In this document: one piece after another, positions 20,390 to 32,127 of the stretch
Layout of the letters: the number at the start of each line of letters is the position of its first letter
Position numbering within the stretch: the stretch's first letter is position 1
From: Acidobacteriota bacterium
Lineage (GTDB): Bacteria > Acidobacteriota > Terriglobia > UBA7540
Direction of reading: 5' to 3'
NCBI GenBank assembly: GCA_902812415.1
Contig: CADDZJ010000040.1
Coordinates: 1 to 35,751 of the forward strand
DNA: 35,751 nucleotides
Program-made: the position numbers and the translations under genes
Notes under the pieces: generated by a model
What the model was told of the DNA's origin: nothing
Database searches by the model: none
Seen by the model: the letters and a program-made list of their open reading frames with translations, nothing else

Positions 20390-21009
20390 GGATTCAAAAC
20401 CTGACGCAGCGCTTGCAGCGCGGTGCGCAACCGCGTCTTGACGGTTCCCAGCGGCTCGCCCGTGCGCTGAGAAATCTCTGAATGCGTCATTCCTTCAAAG
20501 TACGCTAATTCCAGGGCCTGGCGCTGCGGCCCAGGAAGTCCGTCCATGGCGGACTTGATTCTGGACATCAACTCGGCTTGCGCCACCTGAGATTCCAGGT
20601 TGAATCCCGAGGGCAAGCTTTCCTCTTCCTTGGGCCCGTCAGACGGTTTTCTTTGCCTCAGGCGGTCGATGGCGCGATTTCGAGCGCTAACAAACAGCCA
20701 CGCTCCCAGCCCACCGCGTGAAGCCTCATAGTTCGAGGCATGGCGCCACAGGTGGTAAAAAATATCCTGCAAAATCTCTTCGGCAACTCCGGCGTCCTTC
20801 ACCACCCGCAGGGCGACAGAATAGACGACTCCCCCATACCGATCGTACAAAGTTGCCAGGGCCGATTCATCGCCCTGAGCGAGTCGTCGTATCAAATCAA
20901 GATCGGACGCACGATCCTCTTGACTGTAAGCAATAGTTGACAAAGCCCGCGCTGCTTTCTCAAAGAAAGTACGGACGCTCAGCGTACCCGGATTTTCCAG
21001 GGGTTGCAA
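20386..21009 (-). CDS. ECF RNA polymerase sigma factor, SigK-like
   Basis: A 207-residue ECF sigma factor. Region 2 (about residues 50-122) has ALATLYDRYGGVVYSVALRV, EEILQDIFYHLWRHA and WLFVSARNRAIDRLR. Region 4 (about 158-205) has LPGPQRQALELAYFEGMTHSEIS and a helix-turn-helix with GEPLGTVKTRLRTAL. It pairs with the downstream RskA-type gene, as SigK does in actinobacteria. The start is TTG at 21009; an in-frame TGA two codons upstream rules out an earlier one. The start lies close to the divergent ferritin-like gene, so that gene's promoter is a likely target. Confidence 0.94.
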   Translation of the reverse strand: MQPLENPGTLSVRTFFEKAARALSTIAYSQEDRASDLDLIRRLAQGDESALATLYDRYGGVVYSVALRVVKDAGVAEEILQDIFYHLWRHASNYEASRGGLGAWLFVSARNRAIDRLRQRKPSDGPKEEESLPSGFNLESQVAQAELMSRIKSAMDGLPGPQRQALELAYFEGMTHSEISQRTGEPLGTVKTRLRTALQALRQVLNP

Positions 21010-21192
21010 GCCTCAAATGGCACTTCGTGCGCTTTCCATGTCTGTCGGTGGCTTATGAAAAAAAATCAGATGCGGCAAATCCGAATTCCTGAAACGGCTC
21101 GTACTACGGGCAGTGACGGAAGCTTCCGACGGCTTTCCGTTCGGGGAGGGGCGATCAAAATCTTGCGAGACAAGGCACAAGGAGGAATGACC

Positions 21193-22065
21193 ATGGAGAA
21201 CCTCACTGAAACAGGCAGGACACTGGGCAGCCTTTTGGACCGGCGCAAGTTCATAAAAGGCGCAGGCATGGCCAGCTTAGGTGCGGCGGCAACGACGTTG
21301 ACCCTGGGGAATGTTTCTACACTCCGCGGGGCAACGACGGCCGACACCGTTCAGGAAATCCTCACCGCGGCGCTCATCGCCGAAGACCTGGCTACCACTT
21401 TTTACTATAACGGACTCATCGGGCCGGTGATTCAGGACCCTAATCTCGCTGGGAGCGGAGGGTCTGCCAACGACGTTTCCTCGAATGGCAACGCCGGTAA
21501 TGTGAACTATCTTCAGGCGGCGTTGAGTGAAGAGATTTCTCATGCTGACCTGCTGCGCGGCTTGCTGGCCGGGCCGCCGGGCAGCCCAGTGCCTCCGGCC
21601 TCTAAGGATCCGGTGCAGACCTTTTACTTTCCAGCGGGGTCTTTTGCCGCTCTGGGACCCTTTCTCCAGTTGCTCGATGCCTTGGAAAGCGCGTTCATTG
21701 GAGCCTACATGACGGCCGTCGAGGAGTTCGCCACGATGGGCGCACAATCCGCGGCCAAGCCGGGGTCGTCGCCTTTCAACCCCAGACAGCTCGCATACTT
21801 CGCCAAGGTTGCATCTTCAATTCTGGGAGTGGAATCCGAACATCGCGTGCTGGGGCGCGTCATCGGCAACGTCAACCCAGCCAACAACCTTTGCTACGAA
21901 CAAACCGACGGATTGACTAGCGTTTATAACGGCCCGCACTCCGCTGTCGTCGCTCTGACCCCTTTCCTGACTTCAAGGACAGGCCCTGCCTATTCCTTTG
22001 CGGAAGCGCTTTCGAACGCCAAGTCGGTATCTTTGCCCTGCTCGGGCGGGCCACCCTCGCCGTAA
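21193..22065 (+). CDS. Tat-exported ferritin-like protein
   Basis: The frame is open from 21004, but the ATG at 21193 follows AAGGAGG with 7-nt spacing and gives a twin-arginine signal (DRRKFIKGAGMASLGAAAT), so I start there: 290 residues. The four-helix diiron pattern of the ferritin-like fold is visible: Glu64; Glu114-x2-His117 (SEEISHADL); Glu165 or Glu178; Glu214-x2-His217 (VESEHRVL). It matches the PF13668-type ferritin-like family, often tied to stress or desiccation. It may store metal or detoxify peroxide outside the cytoplasm. It is divergent from the ECF sigma gene and probably under its control. Confidence 0.85.
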   Translation: MENLTETGRTLGSLLDRRKFIKGAGMASLGAAATTLTLGNVSTLRGATTADTVQEILTAALIAEDLATTFYYNGLIGPVIQDPNLAGSGGSANDVSSNGNAGNVNYLQAALSEEISHADLLRGLLAGPPGSPVPPASKDPVQTFYFPAGSFAALGPFLQLLDALESAFIGAYMTAVEEFATMGAQSAAKPGSSPFNPRQLAYFAKVASSILGVESEHRVLGRVIGNVNPANNLCYEQTDGLTSVYNGPHSAVVALTPFLTSRTGPAYSFAEALSNAKSVSLPCSGGPPSP

Positions 22066-22174: not shown

Positions 22175-22759
22175 ATGTCTTGCAAAATTAAAACTGCTGG
22201 AATTCTTGCATTGTTGCTCGCACTAGGGAGTGGATACATCTGGGGCGACTCCATCACGGGGAATGGTTCACAAAATAACCCTTTCGTCATTTATGAGGGC
22301 GTTTCTTATACGCTCCCCAGCCTGGTGACCGCAGGCGACGTTGTGATCTGTGAAACCAACAGCCCATGTCTGGATGGCAACGGAAATCTGATCTCCGGCG
22401 CGGATAGCGACGTGATCGACTTCGCTGACACCACCGGCCTCAATGCAGGAAATCAGGTTGAGGCCTATTGCATCTCGAATTGCGACGCCGATGATGTCGC
22501 ATTCCCCGGCGGCGCCCAGGCCCTTTCCATATTTTCGACCATGGTCACTGAAGGCGCTGCGGTGAACGGCGTGCGGGAGACTTCCTTTATGGAGGGCGGG
22601 GCCAGTTACCTGTTTATGGACAGCGCTCCGCCCGCCGCAACCCCGGAACCTGCGAGTGTTCTGCTGCTAGGCACCGGGCTTGTCGTTTTAGGCCTGATCT
22701 TTTACCGGGTGAGAGTAAGAAACGTTGTAGAGCAGAGGGCAAAGCTGCCGGCTTCTTGA
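22175..22759 (+). CDS. PEP-CTERM sorting-domain protein
   Basis: A 194-residue protein preceded by AGAAGGAGG. It has an N-terminal signal (about residues 8-24) and a C-terminal PEP-CTERM tail: PEPASVLLLGTG at 157, a hydrophobic helix, and a basic cluster (RVRVRN). Such tails are cut by exosortase (EpsH/XrtA type), and the proteins are linked to surface polysaccharide. No exosortase is in the window. The extracellular part is acidic and beta-rich with two cysteine pairs (CETNSPC, CISNC). It starts 109 bp after the ferritin-like gene on the same strand and may share its transcript. The final 12 residues beyond the basic cluster are unusually long for this tail. Confidence 0.85.
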   Translation: MSCKIKTAGILALLLALGSGYIWGDSITGNGSQNNPFVIYEGVSYTLPSLVTAGDVVICETNSPCLDGNGNLISGADSDVIDFADTTGLNAGNQVEAYCISNCDADDVAFPGGAQALSIFSTMVTEGAAVNGVRETSFMEGGASYLFMDSAPPAATPEPASVLLLGTGLVVLGLIFYRVRVRNVVEQRAKLPAS

Positions 22760-24267: not shown

Positions 24268-25680
24268 CTATTCCCCGCTCAGGTGAACTCTCCCGCCTAC
24301 TCGAAGCCGGGGAACGACGAATTCCGTGAAGCCGTGATCATGAAAGGCTGGTATGGATTGGCAACAGCCGCGTTCAGGAGTCTCATAGCGGATGGTCGAA
24401 AATATTCCCTTCAACCGCACCTGCACCCGCAGCAGCTGTTCGGAATAATTGACCAATTCCAGCACATCCTCAGTTCCTGATTTCTGATCATTATTGGCCA
24501 GTACCGTCAAGGCGTTCCACAAGCTCATCTCCACCTGTTGCGGCTTCAGGAGCCGTCGCACGTCCTGGGCAAACGCCTCAGGATCGACAATTGGTTCGGA
24601 GAGTTCCACGATCCTTCCCGAGCCCTGGGTGTAAATCGCGGCATTCTCATTCTTTTGAATGGGCGGCCTGGATCGCCAGGGGAAATTTCCCTGCCCGCCG
24701 ACCAGCACTGCGGTTCCGCCGCTTGAAGCGAAATCCGCCATCTTCCGCACGCTGGATTCATTCACCGGACTCCATGCAATGATTAACGCCAGAGATTCCA
24801 GAGGACTCGCCGTGAACTCCTGCGGGGTGATGAAACGAAAAGGGATGTTATGCCGCGCCAGCAGATTGACCGCTTCGTAGGAGGCGTCATAATCATGGGT
24901 AACCACACCGATGTTCGCCTGCGGTTTCAAAACCTGCCCGTGGCGCTGAGAGTAGAAGGCGATGTAGCGCCTGATCCTCTGCCAGCTTGCCCAGCTTTCC
25001 TTCTCCCCTTGCGCCAAACCCTGCTGCAATTTTGGATGAAGATTCAGGATGAGATCGGCGTCGAATGCTCCGGCTTCCGCGATGGCGAGCAGGTAATCTT
25101 CGGGCAGCGGTCCCAGTCGCCGCTCAAGATCGTCTGTTAAATTCCAATCGAAGCCGATCAGCGGAGTCTCCGAAGGATCATAGACCCGCTCGAACCGAAT
25201 CAGAGCAACGTTGGAATCAATCCAGGGCTGGCGGGTGGGACTCGATACTTCCAGAATGCCGTTGCGGTTCACGACCATGGTCCCGCGCATTTGCGGCTGC
25301 TTGCCGCCGGGTTCCAGGAGAAGAACGCTGAGCTTCGGATAGGCCGAACGGATTTCCTGAATGAGCTTTTGATGATTCTGAGGAGCCGGGCTGCTTCCGG
25401 TTGCCTTCACAATCATTCCTGCAAGGCCCTCGCGCGCAATCCTGGCGGCCTCAGCGCGCGCCTGCTCAGCGGAAACTTCCGCGTAGATGTGAAACCCCTT
25501 GTTCCTGGCAGCTTCGATCAGAGTTTGCTGCTGAGGCGCCCAGGTGATCACGACATCGCTGACTCCCAAAGCGCGCGAAGAAGGAATCGCAGGCTCTGCC
25601 CAACGAATCAGGACTCTTCCCCAGCCTGGTCGGGGCAGGAGCGTACAGGCAAGAATAAGAATGATCCTGGGAATCCGCAT
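24268..25680 (-). CDS. Exported protein of unknown function, glycosidase-like with amidotransferase-like domain
   Basis: The frame opens at 25776. The ATG at 25680 starts a signal peptide (MRIPRIILILACTLLPRPGWG) and lies 8 bp after the ApbE stop, giving 470 residues. The N-terminal half shows alternating strands and helices like a TIM barrel (VSDVVITWAPQQQTLIEAA, HIYAEVSAEQARAEAAR). The central part (about 255-345) looks like a class I glutamine-amidotransferase-like Rossmann fold without an obvious nucleophile (IGVVTHDYDASYEAVNLL, SPLESLALIIAWSP, SGGTAVLVGG). A beta-rich C-terminus follows. That order recalls beta-galactosidase trimerisation architectures, but I cannot assign a family or active site. 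It is last in the four-gene unit. Confidence 0.7.
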   Translation of the reverse strand: MRIPRIILILACTLLPRPGWGRVLIRWAEPAIPSSRALGVSDVVITWAPQQQTLIEAARNKGFHIYAEVSAEQARAEAARIAREGLAGMIVKATGSSPAPQNHQKLIQEIRSAYPKLSVLLLEPGGKQPQMRGTMVVNRNGILEVSSPTRQPWIDSNVALIRFERVYDPSETPLIGFDWNLTDDLERRLGPLPEDYLLAIAEAGAFDADLILNLHPKLQQGLAQGEKESWASWQRIRRYIAFYSQRHGQVLKPQANIGVVTHDYDASYEAVNLLARHNIPFRFITPQEFTASPLESLALIIAWSPVNESSVRKMADFASSGGTAVLVGGQGNFPWRSRPPIQKNENAAIYTQGSGRIVELSEPIVDPEAFAQDVRRLLKPQQVEMSLWNALTVLANNDQKSGTEDVLELVNYSEQLLRVQVRLKGIFSTIRYETPERGCCQSIPAFHDHGFTEFVVPRLRVGGRVHLSGE

Positions 25681-25688
25681 GGATGAAG

Positions 25689-26717
25689 TCACCACAACGA
25701 ATGAATCGCAGAATGATGCATCATGATCTGCGGCCCGGTAGAGACCAAATTCGATTTCCCTGCGGGCGAAACCCAAAGCGCCGCCACATCGGGCAATCTC
25801 CTCACCAGCCGTCCGCCTTCCTGAGGTCCCAGCAGGAACAGCGTTGTCGAAAGCCCATCGGTTGCGACGGCGGTCTGCGCAACAACGCTCACAGCCAAAG
25901 TCGCATTGACAGGCCGGTCGGTAAACGGATTAATAATGTGGCCGAATCCTTCGGGATCGATCAGGCTGGAACGGCTTTGCTCAGAAGTTGAGACGCTATC
26001 ATCCCGCAGCAGCACGGTTGGGTCCAGGCGGCGTGAGGGGTCTCGCAGATGCACCAGCCACCCGGGCTGGCCTGGAGGAGTCCCCATCGCATAGACGGTG
26101 CTTCCTCCCGCGTTGATGAGCGCGTTGCGGAGTCCGTAAGATCGAAGCGCCTCGGCGGCTCGGTCCACTGCGTAACCTTTTCCAATAGCTCCCAGATCGA
26201 TTCGCAGGCAGGGAGAGTGGAATTCAATGCGGTTCGGAGGAATCAGCTCAATTTGTTGATAGCCCACGCAACGGCGAAGCTTCTCGATGAGGGAAGCCGA
26301 GGGAGGCTTGCCACGAGCCTGCGCCGCTTTCCAGGCATCCACCAATGGGGCGACCGAAATATCAAATTTGCCCTCGGAAAGCCGTGAGTAGACAAGAGAA
26401 TCCTGAATCGCGCGATAAAGGTCTCGCGGAACCGCCTCAGCATGGAAGTGAGCGGAGCGGTTGAGCCGGCTCAAATCGCTGCTCTCGTCGAAGTTGCTCA
26501 TCACGTGATCCAGTTCAATAATTCGCCGGAACGCGGCCTCGATGGCCTTCGAGGCCCGATCGGGAGACGGATCATAGGCCGCAATCTCATAGACCGTCCC
26601 CATCGCGTATTGCTTTTTATAGACAAACTGTTGCGCAGCGCCCAAGGCTGACGCGCAACCCAGGAGCCACAGAAGCGGCGAAAGGCAGGAGCCGCGAGCA
26701 GTTTCAGGCCAGCGCAT
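25689..26717 (-). CDS. apbE: FAD:protein FMN transferase, ApbE family
   Basis: A 342-residue protein with the ApbE core motifs: MGTVYEI (39-45), FDISVAPLVDAW (118-129), IDLGAIGKGYAVDRA (173-187), NAGGSTVYAMG (202-212), SLIDPEGFGHIINPFTDRP (251-269) and TAVATDGLSTTLFLLG (282-297). ApbE uses FAD and Mg2+ to attach FMN covalently to a Ser/Thr of exported or membrane proteins, such as Nqr/Rnf subunits and FMN-binding domain proteins. An N-terminal hydrophobic run with LLWLLGC (around Cys21) suggests a signal peptide or lipoprotein anchor. It overlaps the propeller gene by 14 bp. No acceptor with the usual TGA-type flavinylation motif is recognisable in the window. Confidence 0.94.
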   Translation of the reverse strand: MRWPETARGSCLSPLLWLLGCASALGAAQQFVYKKQYAMGTVYEIAAYDPSPDRASKAIEAAFRRIIELDHVMSNFDESSDLSRLNRSAHFHAEAVPRDLYRAIQDSLVYSRLSEGKFDISVAPLVDAWKAAQARGKPPSASLIEKLRRCVGYQQIELIPPNRIEFHSPCLRIDLGAIGKGYAVDRAAEALRSYGLRNALINAGGSTVYAMGTPPGQPGWLVHLRDPSRRLDPTVLLRDDSVSTSEQSRSSLIDPEGFGHIINPFTDRPVNATLAVSVVAQTAVATDGLSTTLFLLGPQEGGRLVRRLPDVAALWVSPAGKSNLVSTGPQIMMHHSAIHSLW

Positions 26718-27753
26718 AGACCATGCCCTCGGTCGTCGCCAGATAGATGGCGTCTTCGGTCAGCACCGGACTGGATTGGACCGACTCCCCCAGGCCCGCC
26801 GCCCAGATTCTTCGTCCTGACCGGACGTCCAGGGCGTAAACCCCGCCGCCCATGGATTGCCCGCACACCACGTCGCCGCTTGTGACCGGAGGCGCCGTGA
26901 TGACCCAGCCGGCGCGCGTTTTCCAGCGCAACCGGCCATCAGGAATGTTCGCGGCATAGAGATAACCATCCTTGCTGCCTGCGATCACGGTATTGCCGGC
27001 AACGGCGGGTGAGGAAGCGATGCCCAATCCCGTGGCGAGTTTCCAGCGGACGCTTCCGGTGGCGGCGTCGAGCGCGTAGAGATAAAAATCTTCGGAGCCG
27101 ATCAGAACCAGGCCATTTGACAAAGCGGGCGAGGAATCCAGACCGTTTCCAGTCGGCGCGCTCCAGATGACCTGGCCGGAAGCTGTTTCCAGGCTGTAGA
27201 CGTTTCCGTTGCTGCACCCAAAATAGACCTGGCGCTCGGTGGCATAAGCTGTGGAGTAGATGCGAGCGCCCAGATTGCGCATCCAGCGAGTCGTTCCGGT
27301 TGCAACGTCCACTGCATAGAAGCGCCCGTCGGCTGCGCCGAACAACGCCAGGCCGCCAACGGTTACCGGCGAGGTCCATACTTCAGCCTGCGCCGAGGCT
27401 CTCCAAAGCTCGCGCCCCGAGCGACGATCGACGGCGTAGACCTTGCCTGAATCGCAGCCAAAAAGAATCTTGTCGCCGGAAAGCGCTGGAGTTGAATGGA
27501 TGCGGTCTTCGGCTTGAAATTTCCAGACGGGCCGCCCGGTAACCGTTTCGATGGCATAAAGCTTTCCATCCAGCGCGGTGACGTAAAGGATGCCGTCGCG
27601 CAGGACGGGAGCCGAACGCACAGAGCCTTCCAGCCGAAGCTGCCAGCGGGCGCTCTGGGGAGGATGCCTGGGCCAGGGGCCTTGTCCGCCCGCGCGGCTG
27701 TTATCGCAAAGCAAGGCGGCCCAGAAGTCTTCGTGAGTGGGTGCTTCGGTCAT
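26704..27753 (-). CDS. PQQ-type beta-propeller protein without a signal peptide
   Basis: A 349-residue protein built almost entirely of WD-like/PQQ blades of about 38-40 residues. Each follows the pattern SxPal-g-vl-iGs-dG-lYAlda-tG--rW (e.g. DGKLYAIETVTGRPVWKFQ, SGKVYAVDRRSGRELWR, DGYLYAANIPDGRLRWK); about seven or eight blades fit. Such proteins bind PQQ or serve as scaffolds like BamB. It starts with MTEAPTHEDFWAALL and has no Sec or Tat signal, which is unusual given its exported neighbours; it may work in the cytoplasm or be misstarted. Its ATG lies 9 bp after the DUF362 stop, immediately after GAGGAG, and its 3' end overlaps apbE. Confidence 0.9.
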   Translation of the reverse strand: MTEAPTHEDFWAALLCDNSRAGGQGPWPRHPPQSARWQLRLEGSVRSAPVLRDGILYVTALDGKLYAIETVTGRPVWKFQAEDRIHSTPALSGDKILFGCDSGKVYAVDRRSGRELWRASAQAEVWTSPVTVGGLALFGAADGRFYAVDVATGTTRWMRNLGARIYSTAYATERQVYFGCSNGNVYSLETASGQVIWSAPTGNGLDSSPALSNGLVLIGSEDFYLYALDAATGSVRWKLATGLGIASSPAVAGNTVIAGSKDGYLYAANIPDGRLRWKTRAGWVITAPPVTSGDVVCGQSMGGGVYALDVRSGRRIWAAGLGESVQSSPVLTEDAIYLATTEGMVYALA

Positions 27754-27762
27754 CTCCTCACG

Positions 27763-28926
27763 TTATCCCAAATCCAGCCGGCGGTGATCGATTTTGGAAG
27801 GCTCCCAGACGCCCAGGCCCAGTTTTCCGGCTGCTTCAATATGAGCGGGCTGGCGGAAGAACAAGCTCTTATGAGGGTCGCGGAAATACTCGCGCTCGCT
27901 GCGCACGATGTTTGCCGGATTGCGATCCCACAGCGAGAGGGCTCCTTCCTGCTGGCGCTTTTTCTCAATCGTCTGAAGCTCGACCGTATCAACCGCCACA
28001 GGATCAGTGCCCAGAAACAGAGTCCCAGCCTGGTAGATGAAATCCTGCAACTGGGTTAAAGGCCCGCCGTGCCACACTTCCCGCAGGCCGTCCATGATGT
28101 GCAACACGGCCTTCGAGCGCAGCGGCTCGGTCGAGCACATGACGCCGATGAGCGGATCGGTAAAGGTGATGGGCGCGTGATGCGAGCGCGCGACGTTGTT
28201 GAATGAGCCGTATCCGAGGTTTTTCAGGCAGCCGGTCACGCCTGCAGCCGAGTGGTCCTTCAGCGTGGGCACGTTCACAATCTTGGTGATCTGCTGGGTC
28301 ACGACGCGCGCAAGATAGGATCGAGTCTCCCATTCGCCAAAGAAATTGGCCTCGCAATAGACGTTCAAATCATACGCCTCAACGTCTCGTGCCCGATGCT
28401 CAAGCCCAATCACGCGGATGCCGACGGGCAGAAGCGCATGGTAGCTGCCCGCCTGAATCTCCGTGGAATAGCGGTCGTAGATCAGGATGTTGCGCGTGGG
28501 GACGCCTGCCGATTCGATCCCGCGGATAATCTCACGAACCAGTTCGGGAGAAGAATAACAGGCGGGCGCTCCAGAGGGATTGATCTTGATGCCGACGACG
28601 TCGCCGGGATTGAAGAAGCGCTCCCAGGCGGCCCGGGCGGAACTTTCTCCTGTGAGCGATTGCATGCCGTGTTCGAGCATGAGGCGAACAATAGACTGAG
28701 AGACGTGATTTTCGAGGATCGATTTGGAATGGAAAACTTCCACCACCCGGCCTGGAAACAGGCCCGGCATCCCGAATGGTGAGCGCTCGGCCAGCGGCAT
28801 CCCGTGAACGTGTATGGGAGGCGGCGGAGGCAGGTGAACTTCTTCGCCTGCCCTGGAAGACGCTTGGTCGAGAAACAGGCTTGCAGTTCCCAGGCAAGCG
28901 CTTGTAACAAAAGTCCGTCGATTCAT
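27763..28926 (-). CDS. Tat-exported DUF362-family protein
   Basis: A 387-residue protein beginning MNRRTFVTSACLGTASLFL, a twin-arginine signal, followed by a Pro/His-rich linker. The DUF362 core is visible: GDVVGIKINPSG (about 112-123), VPTLKDHSAAGVTGCLKNLGYG (about 225-245) and FLGTDPVAVDTVELQTIE. The DUF362 family is often fused to or encoded near ferredoxin domains; no CxxCxxC cluster is seen here, so an iron-sulfur role is not supported. It is the first gene of the tight DUF362-propeller-apbE-unknown unit. A folded, cofactor-bearing Tat substrate would fit with the ApbE flavin-transfer activity. Biochemical function is unknown. Confidence 0.86.
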   Translation of the reverse strand: MNRRTFVTSACLGTASLFLDQASSRAGEEVHLPPPPPIHVHGMPLAERSPFGMPGLFPGRVVEVFHSKSILENHVSQSIVRLMLEHGMQSLTGESSARAAWERFFNPGDVVGIKINPSGAPACYSSPELVREIIRGIESAGVPTRNILIYDRYSTEIQAGSYHALLPVGIRVIGLEHRARDVEAYDLNVYCEANFFGEWETRSYLARVVTQQITKIVNVPTLKDHSAAGVTGCLKNLGYGSFNNVARSHHAPITFTDPLIGVMCSTEPLRSKAVLHIMDGLREVWHGGPLTQLQDFIYQAGTLFLGTDPVAVDTVELQTIEKKRQQEGALSLWDRNPANIVRSEREYFRDPHKSLFFRQPAHIEAAGKLGLGVWEPSKIDHRRLDLG

Positions 28927-29148: not shown

Positions 29149-29748
29149 TCAGATTTCCCGACGGCCTTCCATGGCTTTGAGCATGGTAACTTCATCGGCG
29201 AATTCAAGCTCAGAGCCTACAGGAATGCCCATTGCAATGCGGCTGACTTTTACGCCCAGAGGTTTGATCAGTTTGGAAAGGTAAATGGCGGTGGCTTCGC
29301 CTTCGACGTTGGGGTTGGTGGCGACAATGATTTCCTTCACGCTGCCGCTTTTGAGACGCTCCATCAAATTCTTGAGTCTCAATTGCTCCGGGCCTATGCC
29401 CTGCAAGGGTGAAAGCGCCCCGTGCAGCACATGGTAGAGGCCGTGGAATTCGCGCGTGCGTTCGATGCCCACAACGTTATAGGGGGTTTCAACGACGCAG
29501 ATCACGGACTGATCGCGGGTGGGATCGGAACAATATTCGCAGGGATCCTGCTCGGTAAGGTTGTTGCACAGGTTGCAAAGCCGGATCTTATCTTTAACTT
29601 CGAGGATCGCCTGCGACAGGCGTTCGGCATCCTCGCGCGCGGCGCGCTCAATGTGGAACGCGATGCGCTGCGCGGATTTTTGGCCGATTCCGGGAAGCCG
29701 CTTCAACTCGTCAATCAACCTTGAGAGCGGCCCGGCGAATACGCTCAT
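29149..29748 (-). CDS. recR: Recombination mediator RecR
   Basis: A 199-residue protein of normal length. It has the helix-hairpin-helix [19 protein letters not shown], the zinc finger Cys58-x2-Cys61...Cys70-x2-Cys73, and the Toprim domain (about 81-175) with [32 protein letters not shown] and [18 protein letters not shown]. RecR loads RecA with RecO/RecF at gaps. It is downstream of dnaX-ybaB in the order conserved across bacteria; the 200-bp gap (29749-29949) contains no gene but does have a promoter-like pair. Confidence 0.97.
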
Positions 29749-29846
29749 GATGAAACCCTCGATCAGAACGCGGCATTCATTCTTGATTATCGCGCGTGGT
29801 TCTTTGCTGTGCTGGCGCAGACAGCGACGCCGCAGCCCGCTTTGTC

Positions 29847-29876
29847 ACTATATTCTGGAACCCTCAGCAGGCGCAA
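29847..29876 (-). promoter_or_regulatory. Promoter-like pair upstream of recR
   Basis: On the minus strand TTGCGC (29871-29876) and TATAGT (29847-29852) are 18 bp apart, about 100 bp upstream of recR's ATG. This would allow recR its own transcript in addition to read-through from dnaX-ybaB. Consensus-based only. Confidence 0.4.
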
Positions 29877-29949
29877 ACCACGCGCAAGATTCTCAAGTTT
29901 TCGGGGATCTGACGATCTTTGAGGTTTTTGAAGTTCGATCGGAGCCGGA

Positions 29950-30261
29950 TCACATCAGGCCTGGCAGATTCAAGCCGCCGGTCAGATTTCCCACGCGGCT
30001 GGCCAACTGTTCGTCGATCTTGCGCGCCGCCTCGTTCACCGCTGCCAGCACCAGGTCCTGAAGCATCTCGCTATCCTTGGAGGCAAACACTTCCGGGTCA
30101 ATATGGACGGAGATCAACTGCTTCTGGCCGTTCATCTTGACCGTTACCATTCCCCCTCCGGCTGAAGCGTCCACTAACAACTCATCCAGTTGCTTTTGCA
30201 GTTGTTCCTGAAGTTGCTGCACCTGCTTCATGATTTGCTGCATTTGTTGGAGATTTTTCAT
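29950..30261 (-). CDS. ybaB: YbaB/EbfC nucleoid-associated protein
   Basis: A 103-residue protein with the YbaB/EbfC pattern: an N-terminal Met/Gln-rich helix (MKNLQQMQQIMKQVQQLQEQLQ), then GGGMVTVKMNGQKQLISVHIDPEVF and DLVLAAVNEAARKIDEQLAS. It binds DNA as a dimer. It begins 3 bp after the dnaX stop (TGAGCCATG), which suggests coupling, and precedes recR, the classic order. Confidence 0.96.
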   Translation of the reverse strand: MKNLQQMQQIMKQVQQLQEQLQKQLDELLVDASAGGGMVTVKMNGQKQLISVHIDPEVFASKDSEMLQDLVLAAVNEAARKIDEQLASRVGNLTGGLNLPGLM

Positions 30262-30264
30262 GGC

Positions 30265-32127
30265 TCACTCTCCGCTCAGATCTTTAACGTCCATCAAGAC
30301 GCAGTCAAATCGTTTCTGAAATACCTCGACCACCGGATCGCGTTGAGCCCGCTCCTGGGTGCTCGGGCGCGCGGGCGTGGACCGCCCATCATCCGTGCTC
30401 AGTGTAACACAGATTTTTACCGGCTGCCCTAACACCTTCTCGCATGCCGCGCGCAGCTTCTGCTGGTGCTCGCGGCCTTTCAGCAACTCCGCTGCCCAGA
30501 CGCCTTCCCGAGGATAGATGAAGTGGACTTGACCGTCTTCAAACCGCCAGCCCACTACCGGGTTGAGGCAACTGCTCAGGAACTTGGACTGCTCGAAGAG
30601 GAGGGCCTTGATCGCCGCGAGGCGCGCATCCTCGAAAGCAGCAGAAGAAGATGCCAGCGCTTCTTCCGATTCGGCGGAGGAAGCGATAGGTTCTTCCGAT
30701 AGAGCTTGCGCCGGGGCTGCCGACTGGGGGGCTTCAGAAGCGCTTCCGCCAGGATGACCGGGCGCGGCGGCTTCTTGACGGATTGCCGAAGCGCCAGGCG
30801 CTCCTCCCGTCAAGGGCTGCGCAACAGCAGCTTTCAACGCAGAGGAGTTTGCGTCAGGAGTTGGCGCTGAGCGTTTCCAGGGAGGAACCGCGGGACGCTG
30901 CGCAGGCTCACGGGCGGGGGCTCCGGAAGAGCGGCCGGGCTGAACTGCCGCCGCTCCGCCCGAGCCGCTGCCGGAAATCTGGCCGCTGCGCGCACTCTGG
31001 TTCTGAATGGCGGTTAACAGGCTTTCGAGCGCCACGAGCTTGGGAGCCTGCGCCAGTTTCACCAGCGCCAGTTCCAGGTGAAAGCGCGGCTGGAGCGAAT
31101 AGCGCATCTCATTCTGCGCGCGCAGCAACGTCTGGAAGCAGCGCGTCAGGTCTTCCTCGGTGAGCGAAGCGGCAAGCTTTTCAAGGCTGGCTCGCTCGTC
31201 ATCCGGGACTTGAAGCAAGGGGCTTGCAACTCCGCAGCTTTTGGCAATCATCAGATTGCGCGTGTAGCGCGTGAATTCGCCGCAGAAGGTGAGAAGATCA
31301 TAGCCTTCGCCTGTCAGGCGGTTCACCTGCTCCAGCACCCGGCGCGCATCGCCGGCATGAATTGCTTCCATCACCTCGCCGAGCAAAGTGGCTGAGACCA
31401 CGCCCAGCAACTGCCGCACACGTTCCTCTTCGACGCTTTCTCCGGAAGCGGCGATCACTTCATCAAGCAGCGAAAGGGCATCTCGCAAGCTGCCTTCCGC
31501 CCCCTGGGCCACCAGGCTCAAGGCGCCCTCGTCGGCCTTGACGCCTTCGCGTTCGCAGACGGTCTTGAGCCGCTCCAGGATTTCTGAATAATCGAGCAGG
31601 CGGAAGGCAAAGTGCTGGCAGCGCGACTGAATGGTGGCGGGAAGCTTGTGCGCTTCGGTCGTGGCCAGAACAAACAGCGAGCGTTCCGGCGGCTCTTCCA
31701 GGGTCTTCAGCAGAGCGTTGAATGCCTCGGTCGTCAGCATGTGGACTTCGTCGATGATGAAGACCTTGTAATGGTCGCGGGCCGGCAGGTAGCGCGCGTT
31801 TTCGCGTAACTGGCGGATTTCGTCGATGCCGCGGTTGGAGGCGGCGTCGATTTCCAGAACGTCCACGGAATTGCCGGCAGCGATTTCCTGACAGGAGGGA
31901 CATTCACCGCAGGGAGTAATTGTAGGCCCTTTCACGCAATTGAGCGCTTTGGCCAGGATGCGCGCCATCGTGGTCTTGCCTACCCCGCGCGCGCCTGAAA
32001 AGATGTAACCGTGCGCCACGCGGTTGGTGCGAATGGCGTTCTTCAGCGTTTCGCTCACCATGCGCTGGCCGACCACGTCATCGAAAGTTTGCGGCCGGTA
32101 TTTGCGGGCAATGACCTGGTAGGACAT
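30265..32127 (-). CDS. dnaX: DNA polymerase III subunit gamma/tau
   Basis: A 620-residue clamp-loader ATPase. It has Walker A GARGVGKT (45-52), the zinc-binding cysteines 64, 73, 76 and 79, Walker B VFIIDEVHM (122-130), sensor 1 LFVLATTE and the SRC motif (168-170). Domain III is followed by a Pro/Ala/Ser-rich linker (about 385-510) and a C-terminal tau-like domain (about 515-600, FLSSCLNPVVGWRFEDGQVHFIYP). I see no classic A-run slippery site for a gamma frameshift product. Start is ATG at 32127. It precedes ybaB and recR and follows the SRP RNA. Confidence 0.96.
   Translation of the reverse strand: MSYQVIARKYRPQTFDDVVGQRMVSETLKNAIRTNRVAHGYIFSGARGVGKTTMARILAKALNCVKGPTITPCGECPSCQEIAAGNSVDVLEIDAASNRGIDEIRQLRENARYLPARDHYKVFIIDEVHMLTTEAFNALLKTLEEPPERSLFVLATTEAHKLPATIQSRCQHFAFRLLDYSEILERLKTVCEREGVKADEGALSLVAQGAEGSLRDALSLLDEVIAASGESVEEERVRQLLGVVSATLLGEVMEAIHAGDARRVLEQVNRLTGEGYDLLTFCGEFTRYTRNLMIAKSCGVASPLLQVPDDERASLEKLAASLTEEDLTRCFQTLLRAQNEMRYSLQPRFHLELALVKLAQAPKLVALESLLTAIQNQSARSGQISGSGSGGAAAVQPGRSSGAPAREPAQRPAVPPWKRSAPTPDANSSALKAAVAQPLTGGAPGASAIRQEAAAPGHPGGSASEAPQSAAPAQALSEEPIASSAESEEALASSSAAFEDARLAAIKALLFEQSKFLSSCLNPVVGWRFEDGQVHFIYPREGVWAAELLKGREHQQKLRAACEKVLGQPVKICVTLSTDDGRSTPARPSTQERAQRDPVVEVFQKRFDCVLMDVKDLSGE

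Follow-up and report, generated by a model that had tools for sequence, protein, structure and literature searches.

A conserved Acidobacteriota envelope locus pairs an exported LarA-clan DUF362 protein with a GH42-like partner and has repeatedly recruited ApbE

Four tightly packed genes in the window, the whole 35,751-nucleotide stretch of Acidobacteriota DNA that we analysed, raise the question of which exported protein is served by the FAD:protein FMN transferase (ApbE) encoded among them. The preliminary description had read the four as one envelope redox or flavin-linked unit, composed of a Tat-exported DUF362 protein, a PQQ propeller, ApbE and an exported protein of no recognisable family (g4). 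The open-frame listing bore out its layout of four minus-strand genes with intergenic gaps of 9, -14 and 8 bp, and promoter and terminator scans gave no signal above chance.

To define the conserved part of the locus, we compared neighbourhoods across related genomes. The results showed that the order DUF362-propeller-ApbE-g4 was kept in G001, G013, G031 and G034, a recurrence in the genera of three further genomes, and that propeller-ApbE-g4 kept its order in a genome of another family (G298), where the locus lies at a contig start. The neighbour conservation on which the preliminary description depended was present. A same-strand DUF362 gene, mostly adjacent, was found at 35/35 g4 loci (loci cut by a contig end left out). 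Two branches were distinguished, A and B, with about 20% identity between them in both DUF362 and g4, and the second branch likewise pairs g4 with a Tat-DUF362 protein. The propeller was restricted to branch A loci and one other (L147). ApbE was present at 14 g4 loci and belonged to at least three ApbE lineages, and most branch B loci had no ApbE close by. On the ApbE tree, the ApbEs of g4 loci needed four changes, three of them forced by well-supported branches, and therefore several ApbE lineages have been recruited; a single operon-wide ApbE clade was rejected. Within the window's family, ApbE occurred in all 10 genomes with a strong g4 match versus 12 of 27 without one (Fisher p 0.002), and in 15/15 versus 7/22 genomes when weak g4 matches were added. 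These results indicate that DUF362 and g4 form the conserved core, which ApbE has joined repeatedly and the propeller in one branch only. In soil Acidobacteriota, the exported LarA relative almost always adjoins g4, repeatedly with ApbE, and a conserved envelope system with this core, served by ApbE, is almost certainly real.

The DUF362 protein (27763..28926, minus strand; 387 aa from an MNRR start) matched PF04015 (E 2.4e-18), the identity already assigned to it. Its Tat signal peptide spans residues 1-28 (28843..28926, minus strand; MNRRTFVTSACLGTASLF), a stretch of low confidence in the structural model, and almost every DUF362 relative whose N-terminus is complete retained the RR motif. 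Tat signals occur very often in these bacteria. A PDB sequence search with the DUF362 profile gave nothing useful, and structure comparison was needed. Foldseek with the DUF362 model returned nine matches with E <1e-3, all of them LarA-family, at low TM-scores of 0.29-0.43. HHalign gave no significant match between small DUF362 and LarA profiles; wider profiles gave E 2e-4, at a probability of only 47%, with a register for LarA His174, Lys184 and His200. In this register, H225-x3-G229-x-T231-x3-K235 (28222..28254, minus strand) lies opposite LarA His174 ... Lys184, the latter the nickel-pincer tether, and the H225-K235 spacing of 10 equals that of His174-Lys184. K223, H225, G229, T231 and K235 were each present in 45/45 aligned DUF362 relatives. 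H249 (28180..28182, minus strand) falls opposite LarA His200, and its column held a His in 36/45. In LarA, His174 is catalytic, Lys184 tethers the cofactor and His200 is a nickel ligand (PMC11770544). The stretch that HHalign placed opposite the second catalytic His of LarA, His108, is the YDRYS region and has no His, so that one catalytic His only is kept, as in the single-histidine LarA subfamily (PDB 9q3j, 9q3k; PMC12611868).

By computation, these results identify the DUF362 protein as a LarA-clan protein in which the equivalents of His174 and Lys184, and mostly a candidate equivalent of His200, are kept, and LarA-like catalysis is probable. The two families share one Pfam clan (PMC11770544) and the clan alone, Pfam giving DUF362 and not Lar_N (DUF2088). 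Besides the fold matches and residues, the locus has in common with the LarA superfamily a link to sugar metabolism: LarA enzymes include D-gluconate 2-epimerases, and gluconate/mannonate epimerases belong to the LarA family (PMC11770544). Unlike LarA, the protein is Tat-exported, has g4 as partner and ApbE nearby, and its cofactor here is putative. The DUF362 family has no assigned function, and the kept residues predict a nickel-pincer-type cofactor outside the cytosol. LarC and LarA homologues were found in 17/17 carrier genomes; judged by LarC alone, synthesis of the NPN cofactor appears possible in these genomes, and since LarC was universal in the sample, its presence does not discriminate. 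Neighbours of branch B loci and of the G013 locus included UxuA, enolase-superfamily, RraA and CBM9 proteins.

The fourth gene, g4 (24268..25680, minus strand), encodes 470 aa when the ATG at 25680 is taken as start within the open frame 24268-25776. No Pfam or NCBIfam family was found for g4, none of 10 members matched a glycoside hydrolase Pfam family, and a PDB sequence search was of no use, so that structure comparison was needed here too. Foldseek related g4 to GH42 and similar enzymes with E 1e-9 to 1e-17, and behind a Sec-type signal g4 carries a TIM barrel, a GATase-like middle domain and a beta-sandwich, in the domain order of GH42 beta-galactosidase-type enzymes. The TIM-barrel and amidotransferase-like parts recognised earlier fit this fold; the view that g4 has no family held for Pfam and NCBIfam, but the protein is structurally recognisable as a GH42-like three-domain protein. 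In contrast to GH42-type enzymes, its barrel is shortened, and among 40 g4 sequences no catalytic Glu pair was conserved at the mouth of the barrel, where strands 4 and 7 end; the conserved acids lie at 202, 269, 366, 373 and 453, with no such pair among them. Conservation was strong in the motif S146-S-P-T149-R-Q-P-W153-I-D-S-N157 (25210..25245, minus strand), where position 149 was S/T in 37/39 sequences (95%), the S/T-x-x-P-W loop was almost invariant, and P152, W153 and N157 were among the most conserved residues of g4.

The propeller (26704..27753, minus strand; 349 aa) matched PF13360 (PQQ_2/BamB-type propeller) with E 7.4e-62, and its best NCBIfam match was BamB/YfgL, under the cut-off. 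It shares repeat family and fold with BamB and PQQ-repeat propellers. It differs from them in scoring under the BamB cut-off, in having no signal peptide even in the longest possible reading frame, and in matching no PQQ-dehydrogenase family above cut-off (PQQ_enz_alc_DH 91.8 bits vs a cut-off of 480; NCBIfam). The reading as a PQQ-dependent enzyme was dropped; the propeller is BamB-like and leaderless, and PQQ is not indicated.

ApbE (25689..26717, minus strand; 342 aa) matched PF02424 (E 4.5e-68), as the preliminary description had it, is predicted to be exported, and carries the conserved S (VSTSEQ), H (GHIINP) and D (ATDGLST) motifs. It is the single copy in its genome. A search of the same genome that covered FMN_bind, DUF2271 and DUF3570 proteins found none of them, and an FMN_bind protein was absent in 17/17 carrier genomes. 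The known ApbE motif, D-x-x-[ST]-G-A-[ST] (PMC12052999), occurred in none of the four proteins, and the PW loop of g4 does not fit it. A genome-wide scan for D-x-x-[ST]-G-A-T found no exported protein with the motif; it gave 15 DNA matches versus 14 for a reversed-pattern control, and the long-frame matches, which were rejected, were ArgC, MnmE, a Tat protein (DHAWGAT) and a TonB-type barrel (DRTRGAT). The SGAT-type strings that some relatives of g4 and DUF362 contain lay at unconserved places, the TGAT of one DUF362 protein (L148) excepted.

The locus resembles ApbE flavinylation systems (Nqr, Rnf, DUF2271, DUF3570, Flavodoxin_4, FMN_red; PMC8238504, PMC11334425) in its exported ApbE beside conserved exported proteins and in its orphan apbE in an FMN_bind-free genome; ApbE without an FMN_bind substrate has been reported for about one-sixth (17%) of extracytosolic-flavinylation genomes (PMC8238504). 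The locus differs in lacking FMN_bind, DUF2271, DUF3570 and the canonical motif and in having LarA-clan and GH42-like proteins as partners. It falls outside the named flavinylation systems, in line with the preliminary description. The flavin-linked envelope role proposed there has become likelier because ApbE is the sole copy and none of the substrate families searched for was found in the genome; the core of the proposed system is now the DUF362-g4 pair.

Taken together, the locus looks like an envelope system for sugar-acid oxidation or rearrangement, apparently undescribed; among the papers searched, none treated ApbE and DUF362 together. The conserved system is well supported; its chemistry we infer as follows. 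DUF362 would acquire a nickel-pincer-type nucleotide in the cytosol and for that reason use Tat, folding together with g4 in branch B, where g4 lacks a leader. In the periplasm, a sugar acid held partly by g4 would give up the hydride of its hydroxyl carbon to DUF362. A covalent FMN placed on g4 by ApbE, with the conserved S/T of the [PA]-[TS]-x-x-P-W loop as the likeliest site, would let the hydride leave as electrons and not return to the substrate; the net chemistry would be dehydrogenation, not racemisation. The propeller of branch A, which has no leader, may be an assembly or maturation scaffold. As a whole, a DUF362-g4 envelope system combining a nickel-pincer-type hydroxy-acid enzyme with FMN on g4 is our best explanation, held tentatively. 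Within it, g4 is the likely (unproven) flavin carrier with T149 as candidate site, and covalent FMN on g4 is possible, with doubt prevailing. The fully specified version, a periplasmic hydroxy-acid dehydrogenase in which the Tat-exported enzyme hands sugar-acid hydride to covalent FMN on its GH42-like partner, and in which [PA]-[TS]-x-x-P-W is a target loop new for ApbE, is distinctly unlikely. The DUF362-g4-ApbE loci offer a new candidate substrate class for ApbEs without FMN_bind, and g4 would show a glycosidase-like scaffold repurposed for redox or binding.

The strongest alternative, unlikely but to be taken seriously, is that the exported DUF362 protein works as a nickel-pincer epimerase or racemase of sugar acids and, like LarA, gives the hydride back, with g4 only binding or presenting the sugar and ApbE serving another exported protein or hydrolysing FAD. 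The retained LarA-type residues, the gluconate/mannonate epimerases of the LarA family, the nearby UxuA and enolase-superfamily dehydratases, and the lack of a nearby ApbE at most branch B loci all agree with it. However, ApbE joined g4 loci several times and occurs in every g4 genome of the family, no other ApbE substrate of the known kinds searched for was found in the genome, and an active site without the His108 equivalent is ill-suited to two-base racemisation. It is improbable that g4 is catalytically active, as a glycoside hydrolase from a distant GH42-like family, within an ordinary sugar-utilisation cluster: fold and carbohydrate-related neighbours fit, but the missing Glu pair and glycoside hydrolase matches do not, and the strict pairing with DUF362 would be left unexplained.

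Flavinylation of DUF362 itself at T231, with FMN replacing the nickel-pincer nucleotide in the LarA-type pocket, is very improbable. The invariant T231 does lie between the two active-site residues, the L148 protein has an exact TGAT at this place (KDHGATGATGCLKN), and the LarA cofactor is likewise a mononucleotide. Yet the Thr is kept in DUF362 relatives of ApbE-free genomes (G004, G023, G026), the Lys tether is also kept, and the site should be buried. DUF362 is the less likely covalent-FMN target; its residues fit a LarA-type cofactor site. That unrelated exported genes came together in one operon by accident, to which MAG data and patchy presence might point, has a negligible probability, and for the DUF362-g4 pair this reading is refuted by the same gene order across genera, the invariable pairing and its persistence in two divergent branches.

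The coordinates read from the sequence bear out the four tight minus-strand genes of the preliminary description: DUF362 (27763-28926, minus), propeller (26704-27753, minus), ApbE (25689-26717, minus) and g4 (24268-25680, minus), the last encoding an exported, GH42-like protein of 470 aa, with intergenic distances of 9, -14 and 8 bp. Of these four proteins, DUF362, propeller and ApbE at most could be named with Pfam and NCBIfam, and neither assigned a family to g4. The DUF362 N-terminus (MNRRTFVTSA) is a Tat signal, and ApbE and g4 begin with hydrophobic Sec-type leaders; a leader was sought in the longest possible frame of the propeller and none was found, its relatives being alike. On the 5' side lie recR, a YbaB-like gene and dnaX in the usual order (29149-32127, minus); the genes upstream of the unit differ among other genomes, indicating that it is independent of this group. 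Elsewhere in the window, 21004-22065 (plus) encodes a protein with a Tat-like start (RRKFIKGAGMASLGAAATTL), which we take to resemble a ferritin-like exported protein, and 22175-22759 (plus) an exported protein whose end resembles PEP-CTERM (Pfam E 7e-4, just under the cut-off).

Three of the proteins served as queries against 61 genomes, and the neighbourhoods were then fetched. The gene order, for which a comparison across relatives had been proposed, proved to be the same in G001, which belongs to the window's genus, in G013 and G031, which share another genus, and in G034, from a third. The DUF362 gene of G012 sits at a contig end, and in G298, from another family, propeller-ApbE-g4 lies at a contig start (found by a phylum search and a GTDB contig search). 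All confirmed matches of a GTDB scan with one short peptide pattern as query (24/24) were Acidobacteriota. A conserved envelope system is well supported, and it is apparently undescribed so far.

The core of this system is the DUF362-g4 pair. A same-strand DUF362 gene, mostly only a few bases away, accompanied 35 of 35 g4 genes in loci uncut by contig ends, a count that leaves out four distant long g4-like proteins. Next to divergent g4 proteins (20-25% identity) lies a divergent Tat-DUF362 (branch B, 18-23% identity), and the short g4 versions of loci L148 and L149 are partnered by a DUF362 of the window-like type A. At most branch B loci a leaderless g4 adjoins a DUF362 with a Tat signal, and in G034 g4 itself carries a Tat signal resembling the one on its DUF362, which suggests that the two proteins are exported together as a folded complex. 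At L084 (6418-7917, minus) the g4 Tat signal is near-identical to that of the same-locus DUF362, as if copied. Type A Tat-DUF362 relatives (~40% identity) without g4 were seen at L095, L096, L097, L099 and L101, and some g4-less relatives of this type occur in genomes without detected ApbE (G004, G023, G026). The window's genome also encodes a distant long g4-like protein of 757 aa (G000:C183:4150-4323; L138, L151); the long forms in relatives (L152, L155, L156) had no DUF362 neighbour.

DUF362 and DUF2088 (LarA, the nickel-pincer lactate racemase family) belong to the same Pfam clan, and in LarA Lys184 tethers the nickel-pincer nucleotide and His200 is a nickel ligand (PMC11770544). Profile-profile comparison of 45 DUF362 with 29 LarA sequences from these genomes gave one colinear register (E 2e-4, probability 47%), in which H225 corresponds to His174, K235 to Lys184 and H249 to His200, and the equivalent of LarA His108 is not kept. 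K223, H225, G229, T231 and K235 were present in 45/45 DUF362 relatives and H249 in 36/45; LarC and LarA homologues occurred in 17/17 genomes. From these features we read DUF362 as a LarA-like enzyme, exported pre-loaded because Tat serves the export of proteins already loaded. In the DUF362 at L148 (8456-9598, minus) the conserved GVT position reads exactly TGAT (KDHGATGATGCLKN), and in its L149 relative VGAT.

FMN_bind was not found in the window's genome, and neither were DUF2271 and DUF3570. FMN_bind was found in 0/17 carrier genomes, and control genomes confirmed that the search works. A DNA scan of the window's genome (~4% missing) for D-x-x-[ST]-G-A-T, a pattern outside which Ser-ending and Asp-less motifs fall, gave 15 matches versus 14 when the pattern was reversed. 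Of the 15, the ones that fall in long open frames, named by eye from sequence, were ArgC, MnmE and two exported proteins with W or R replacing S/T. As neither these domains nor an exported motif protein was found, the ApbE target here is probably not a known one. The g4 model (pLDDT 80) matches GH42-type and similar three-domain glycosidases, and no Glu pair stands at the expected places across 40 g4 sequences. The best-conserved stretch of g4, in the segment that the model places between strands 5 and 6, is the loop [SGA]-[SGA]-[PA]-[TS]-x-x-P-W-[VI]-x-x-N, and position 149 is S or T in 37/39 sequences. ApbE tolerates Asp loss in its target motif, and single Gly or Ala changes lower flavinylation to about half (PMC12052999). 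Given this tolerance, the PW loop is a possible but unproven candidate flavin site.

ApbE was present at 14 g4 loci, including L149, where it lies almost 5 kb off, and L148, where it is on the opposite strand. Within the window's family, ApbE occurred in 10/10 genomes with a clear g4 versus 12/27 lacking one (Fisher p 0.002, in a comparison affected by shared ancestry and some incomplete genomes). The g4-locus ApbEs were spread over several lineages of the ApbE tree, its starred branches forcing at least three changes, so the association with g4 arose more than once. The window's genome has one ApbE copy. At L148 (4796-6802, plus) an ApbE fused to CBM9_1 (carbohydrate-binding) lies next to the DUF362-g4 pair.

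Among the neighbouring genes in branch B and G013/G031 are those for UxuA, for enolase-superfamily and RraA-like proteins, for amidohydrolases, and for CBM9 and TonB-type barrel proteins; several of the products carry Tat signals. Gluconate/mannonate epimerases belong to the LarA enzymes (PMC11770544), and LarA enzymes with a single His likewise occur near sugar genes (PMC12611868). These neighbours and LarA contexts point to sugar acids as candidate substrates. The exported DUF362, together with g4, would most likely act on a sugar acid by hydride chemistry of the LarA type, and ApbE would supply a covalently attached flavin, with g4 as its most likely carrier. UxuA-like (F4) and enolase-superfamily (F8) proteins, several of them Tat-signalled, lie near the pair at L083, L112, L114, L143 and other loci, and such neighbours possibly form an exported sugar-acid pathway.
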